Below are positions 28,482-29,214 of a DNA stretch of 64,000 nucleotides, piece after piece. Source of the DNA: Acidobacteriota bacterium. Lineage in GTDB: Bacteria > Acidobacteriota > Terriglobia > UBA7540. The notes below the pieces were generated by a model, which had not been told where the DNA came from, did no database searches, and saw nothing but the letters and a program-made list of their open reading frames with translations. The stretch is taken from contig JAKCCV010000009.1 in assembly GCA_021838785.1 (NCBI GenBank), forward strand, positions 62,001 to 126,000, read 5' to 3'. Positions within the stretch are counted from its first letter, which is position 1, and each line of letters opens with the position of its first letter. Made by a program: the position numbers and the translations under genes.

Positions 28482-28901
28482 TCAAGCCGGAGGCGCAGTG
28501 CATTCGCAGCGAAAACCATTGGCTTGGCCTTGGTGCGTGGGGTGACGGTATCCGGTCCATTCCTTCCAGCCGACATTCAACTCCTTAGCGAAAAACCCTC
28601 GCTCTGCCAACTGCAGAGCCGCCTTCGCGGAGAGCTGTCAGTCGTGGCCCCAGCAGTAAGTGACGATTTCCTTGTCTTTCGGCAAACTGGGAATTAGTTG
28701 CTCCAGCTCTTCTATCGGCGCGCACCAAGCGCCCGGGATGTGCCCGTTCGTAAATGCCTCACGGCCTCGGATATCCAACAGTACAAAGTCGTACTTGTGA
28801 TCCTCAACCGCATGTAAAACATCGTTGCGCTGCTTTTGAGCGTGGAGTTTAGCCAAAAAGTAGTCGCGATTAGCGCGAATTTGGTCCGGGGTGAACGACA
28901 T
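28482..28901 (-). pseudogene. Rhodanese-domain protein interrupted by an in-frame UGA
   Basis: Translation from ATG 28899-28901 (strong GGAGGAG upstream) gives 87 residues with FVLLDIRGREAFTNGHIPGA and the active-site segment VTYCWGHD, then a TGA at 28638-28640. The same frame continues downstream with clear rhodanese sequence, LSAKAALQLAERGFFAKEL followed by GWKEWTGYRHP, to a TGA at 28482-28484. Homologues, as I recall them, have Cys-His at the place of the TGA-CAG codons. So either this is a recent nonsense mutation, or UGA is decoded (see findings). The catalytic Cys itself is intact, but the short product lacks the last third of the domain. Confidence 0.75.
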
Positions 28902-29214
28902 AACAAGCTCCTCCAAAGAATTAGGATTGTGAATCCGCTTCAGACCCTGCCAAAATTCAGGATAGGACGCTCGCGAAAAGCTGTCAATCCAACGAGGGCG
29001 GCGGCACTGTCAATGATTCGTGTTGAAAATGTCGTTTTCAGCCGATAGACCCAGGTTTGTAAGGCCTTCGAGGAGATTTGTAGCAAAGCTCGGCTTCGTC
29101 TGCTCTCCGCAGCCAATCACCGGTGAGCCGGTCACGTCCAAGCGCTGGATCGTATCGCGGAGGGCCCCGCACGTTTCAAAAAGCAAATTTAGCTTTCCGG
29201 CCCGGTTCGTAGGG
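28902..29214. other. Intergenic region between GH54 gene and rhodanese gene
   Basis: About 310 bases separate the GH54 stop from the rhodanese start on the same strand. I see the rhodanese ribosome site at its left end, but no terminator with a T-run, no good promoter match and no conserved small frame. Base composition is less GC-rich than the flanking genes. Confidence 0.5.

Follow-up and report, generated by a model that had tools for sequence, protein, structure and literature searches.

The window analysed here, a stretch of 64,000 nt from an Acidobacteriota bacterium (Terriglobia; UBA7540; GCA_021838785.1, JAKCCV010000009.1, positions 62,001-126,000), carries on its minus strand a rhodanese gene (28482..28901) with an in-frame TGA. 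From the ATG at 28901 the frame runs through this TGA at codon 88 (28640-28638) to the final TGA at 28484-28482 and, if TGA is translated as U, encodes 139 amino acids followed by the stop. The assignment as a selenoprotein-rhodanese coding sequence is predicted from this translation, a match to PF00581 and homologues that carry the UGA as well. The UGA codon is located five residues past the catalytic Cys83 (YCW; codon at 28653..28655, minus strand), which is invariant and aligns with the active-site cysteine of rhodaneses including BH2092, so that the motif reads CWGHDU within a loop YCWGHDU. PF00581 matched residues 29-116 with 56.2 bits (gathering score 22.2), and thus the rhodanese domain spans the UGA. 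The preliminary description of the locus had recognized a rhodanese-like frame on both sides of the TGA, five residues after the active-site cysteine, and was right in this as well as in the coordinates. In the mechanical list of open reading frames the rhodanese was cut at the UGA to 92 amino acids ending in CWGHD, and annotation pipelines halting at UGA would call a truncated rhodanese.

According to the alignments, the active-site loop is two residues longer than that of CxAGxRS homologues, and the protein lacks the canonical six-residue sulfurtransferase loop CxxGxRS. A C-terminal CxC motif (Cys132 and Cys134; 28500..28508, minus strand) occurs in 16/16 aligned members and also in a homologue of the Cys form, L088 (GFSCEC). 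The AlphaFold model of the protein is of moderate quality (pLDDT 71). Upstream of the gene, a Shine-Dalgarno-like GGAGGAG (28908..28914, minus strand) can be read 6 nt from the ATG, and a candidate sigma-70-like promoter, TTGACA-17-TATCCT (28959..28987, minus strand), agrees with the consensus, on which alone it was called, at 10 of 12 positions. The flanking genes encode an alpha-L-arabinofuranosidase and a GH28 protein, plant polysaccharide hydrolases unrelated to the rhodanese, and a comparison of the gene neighborhoods of the homologues revealed no conserved neighbors except within the genus.

Distribution and conservation of the UGA codon

A family search identified four close homologues, all of which have a single TGA at the corresponding position. 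Scanning the contigs of 84,980 species for two short peptide patterns yielded 15 loci, all of them in Acidobacteriota, and divergent members outside the phylum could be missed by patterns of this kind. Thirteen of these loci were readable and all 13 had the TGA; one was masked by N, and one was frameshifted yet still displayed CWSHD-TGA. A Cys orthologue, spelled YCW[GS]HDC, was looked for in the same 84,980 species and none was found. In the codon alignment the UGA (28638..28640, minus strand) was kept in 16/16 intact homologues, which stem from two Acidobacteriota classes and share about 50-96% identity, the divergent members L067 and L068 belonging to another class; more distant homologues have cysteine at this position. 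In wider surveys, the rhodanese gene was present in 3/396 genomes at the level of the phylum, and matches were obtained in 16/399 genomes at the level of the class, indicating a patchy distribution. The 16 class matches include two Cys-type rhodaneses outside the UGA family (G549 and G707, E about 1e-19) and one genome, G466, in which the Sec region is masked. Almost all homologues of the UGA form derive from metagenome-assembled genomes, and a search of viral contigs did not identify any relative of the window rhodanese. Two gene copies, L064 and L080, are frameshifted but still hold the UGA, and L080 has also retained the hairpin described below; these are either decaying genes, which would make the rhodanese expendable in part of the lineages, or the result of errors in the assemblies.

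The rhodanese part downstream of the UGA, with a pN/pS of 0.21, is under purifying selection. A recent point mutation had been taken as the simplest explanation in the preliminary description, and a nonsense mutation or sequencing error truncating an ordinary rhodanese would agree with a lone UGA in an otherwise intact frame and with the frameshifted copies elsewhere; its probability is nevertheless negligible and it was rejected, as the UGA is conserved across genera and classes in independent assemblies, all readable intact homologues have both UGA and hairpin, selection continues past the UGA, and neither the scan nor the wider surveys provided an orthologue with a Cys codon.

The hairpin downstream of the UGA

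Starting 18 nt past the UGA, the mRNA can form a putative bacterial SECIS hairpin (28601..28619, minus strand) of the sequence GCUCUGC-AGUUG-GCAGAG(C), in which a perfect stem of 7 bp carries a 5-nt apical loop, AGUUG (28608..28612, minus strand), with G and then U from its second position; the distance from the UGA to the loop is 25 nt. The minimum free energy (MFE) of the hairpin is -11.2 kcal/mol, corresponding to a z of -3.4 against shuffled sequences. The published bSECIS model (PMC13188914) requires a loop of 3-9 nt, a stem of 4-16 bp, a spacing of 16-37 nt and an MFE of at most -7.5, and in addition G in the first two loop positions. The window hairpin lies within every one of these limits (loop 5, stem 7, AGUUG, spacing 25, MFE -11.2). 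Stem, loop and both distances had been given correctly before, and the earlier suggestion that the hairpin fits the loose geometry of bacterial SECIS elements is borne out by the published values.

To determine the constraint on the hairpin, the codon alignment of 16 UGA rhodaneses was used. Codons +7 to +12 past the UGA were nearly invariant, with GCT, CTG and CAG in 16/16, TTG and GCA in 14/16 each and GAG in 15/16 sequences, while conserved residues outside the hairpin were encoded by mixed codons (permutation p<1e-5 for the codon excess in the hairpin). Correspondingly, pS was 0.20 in the hairpin versus 0.76 across the rest of the downstream part. In the loop, AGTT was invariant in all 16 sequences and the last base was G in 14 and A in two, L057 and L061. 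Apart from this last base, the few changes seen mostly keep a pair, as with A-U to G-U (L061, L062) and C-G to U-G (L080). As the stem hardly varies, its covariation carries too little information, and the argument for a SECIS element rests on the freezing of synonymous sites. In L058 the hairpin has lost an outer pair; at -6.2 kcal/mol it is weakened and does not reach the -7.5 required by the model. An Rfam search of the rhodanese region gave no match to a SECIS family and one chance match.

It is highly improbable that the hairpin instead acts as an intrinsic terminator or arose by chance within the coding sequence: a terminator-like site was indeed flagged by a scan at 28619-28601, followed by GAGGGTTTTT, but the U-rich tail is not conserved (e.g., L053, AAAGGGTACC) whereas the synonymous sites of stem and loop are frozen, and homologues of the Cys form do not keep this hairpin sequence. 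The terminator reading was therefore rejected on conservation.

Selenocysteine machinery and reading of the UGA

The preliminary description had noted that no sel genes were in view; this is correct for the window, but the genome as a whole does encode them. This genome is 98% complete and contains selB (352 bits, above cut-off), selA (570 bits), selD (374 bits), itself interrupted by one in-frame TGA, and a tRNA-Sec (74.9 bits), the latter confirmed by ARAGORN as SeC with the anticodon TCA. The search for these four genes and the alignment of homologues had both been proposed earlier as checks; selenocysteine was left unrefuted by the former, and the latter revealed UGA rather than Cys in sister species, together with a conserved hairpin. 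Above-cut-off selB occurs in 32/39 genomes of the GTDB family of the window genome, and its presence alone is thus weak evidence, although its absence would have been fatal. Among the rhodanese carriers with a completeness of at least 90%, 9/9 have an above-cut-off selB; none was found in the carriers G024, G325 and G663, genomes of just 57-75% completeness.

Two further observations were made in this genome. Near its start, selD (L018, G000:C36:63703-64629) has the in-frame TGA in the context AAG-TGA-AAK, with a downstream hairpin whose loop contains GG, and SelD is therefore itself a predicted selenoprotein. A second match to the tRNA-Sec model (L011, G000:C23:15905-15992) scored 48 bits against a gathering score of 47 bits and is probably another long-arm tRNA.

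A C directly after UGA generally makes for a leaky stop, and this C is present in 16/16 sequences. The UGA might accordingly be a genuine stop, with the downstream part made separately or under regulation, e.g., by programmed readthrough with another tRNA. We consider this very unlikely, and the leaky-stop reading was rejected on conservation. The sequence past the UGA supplies the remainder of the rhodanese domain and can be aligned residue-for-residue with continuous Cys homologues, the hairpin has SECIS-like geometry and the full Sec machinery is present. Readthrough by another tRNA is also at odds with the aligned residue, which is Cys and not Trp, Arg or Gln: distant homologues have Cys at this position in BH2092 (YCWGPAC), in stand-alone Acidobacteriota proteins (YCDGPGC), in ArsR-type fusions (YCRGPYC) and in a Chimaeribacter plasmid rhodanese (YCAGPHC), which argues for selenocysteine rather than a recoded Trp as residue 88.

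With UGA and hairpin in every readable relative and the four Sec-insertion genes in the genome, the UGA at codon 88 is very probably read as selenocysteine, and the gene, as judged from sequence, would encode a single-domain rhodanese selenoprotein. SelB with Sec-tRNA(Sec) would bind the hairpin just past the UGA, and Sec would be inserted at position 88, resulting in a CxxxxU motif inside the enlarged active-site loop YCWGHDU. This would add a selenoprotein subfamily to a large, mostly uncultured soil phylum. In addition, the unusually clean predicted SECIS, with its synonymous sites frozen across classes, may serve as a test of hairpin reading by SelB outside the phylum of E. coli.

Proposed role and relation to known rhodaneses

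Rhodaneses form a persulfide intermediate on the catalytic cysteine. In the selenocysteine-containing protein, Cys83 may take up persulfide or an oxidised sulfur species, and Sec88 would then attack, releasing sulfide or a reduced product and leaving a Cys83-Sec88 selenenylsulfide, which the C-terminal CxC or a thioredoxin/thiol system could subsequently reduce. Based on the chemistry of the motifs, we tentatively suggest that the protein may function as a persulfide reductase or redox sulfurtransferase, and not as a rhodanese of simple sulfur transfer. A more specific proposal, a selenium-dependent persulfide/perselenide enzyme in which the Sec88-Cys83 pair and a CxC relay reduce persulfides or carry selenium to SelD, appears rather doubtful; if delivery to SelD were true, the making of a possible selenium-delivery protein would itself depend on selenium. 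The CxxxxU loop and the CxC tail represent a testable redox center.

A 2026 inventory lists 119 prokaryotic selenoprotein families, among them five rhodanese forms (UxxS, UxxG, CxU, UxxG and UxxxxU). CxxxxU is absent from these 119 families, the nearest forms being CxU and the UxxxxU of TsoB. A full-text literature search on selenoprotein rhodaneses of Acidobacteria did not return a description of this rhodanese, and the ExtH rhodanese is not termed a selenoprotein in the available part of its source (PMC5877670). No model cut-off of NCBIfam release 20.0 (June 2026) was reached by the window rhodanese, and none of the 14 members scanned passed; for all 14 the top model was NF041203, with a best E of 1.8e-15, close to the score of the window rhodanese itself. 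This model, rhodanese_LYCAU (form 3, CxU), resembles the window rhodanese in that the catalytic Cys is retained and Sec is placed within the active-site loop. However, the window rhodanese scored 51.8 bits, far under the cut-off of 115, and its Sec is at Cys+5, whereas that of the NF041203 form is at Cys+2, as in YCTU of L037 and L033. The known CxU form also occurs among Acidobacteriota relatives, as L037, L033 and L045 have YCT-TGA-PNEATSA, and L047 has Cys (YCSC).

For TsoB (NF045694, a rhodanese/DsbD fusion with UxxxxU; PMC13188914), the spacing suggests that the second Sec occupies the Sec position of the window rhodanese. The two differ in that TsoB has two Sec in a fused model of 572 positions, whereas the window rhodanese has a single Sec in 139 amino acids, Cys as the first residue of the motif and no DsbD-like part, scoring 20.9 bits against a cut-off of 805. 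The protein could also be a selenoprotein that is a distant member of form 1 (UxxS, Geobacter WP_010941598.1), as the UQLS of the window rhodanese fits the letters UxxS and form 1 may therefore share the Sec position, which would then not be new. This is a comparison by motif only, form 1 being known to us by its motif letters, and all members found here are Acidobacteriota proteins sharing the CxC tail; we regard membership in form 1 as unlikely, though to be taken seriously.

The closest solved relative of the window rhodanese is BH2092 from Bacillus halodurans (PDB 3o3w, 3nhv), both by sequence (E 4.6e-17) and by fold, as the best Foldseek match. It is likewise a stand-alone protein with the enlarged loop YCWGPAC, but has Cys in place of Sec and shares about 30% identity. 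The plasmid-borne rhodanese of Chimaeribacter arupi (WP_101854711.1, L088 1-993) resembles the window rhodanese in its CxxxxC loop and in its tail, GFSCEC compared to GFRCEC, and differs by a Cys codon (TGT), the lack of such a hairpin and an identity of 35%. At the level of motifs, this suggests that the CxC tail goes with the CxxxxC/U loop and that the two function together, also beyond Acidobacteriota.
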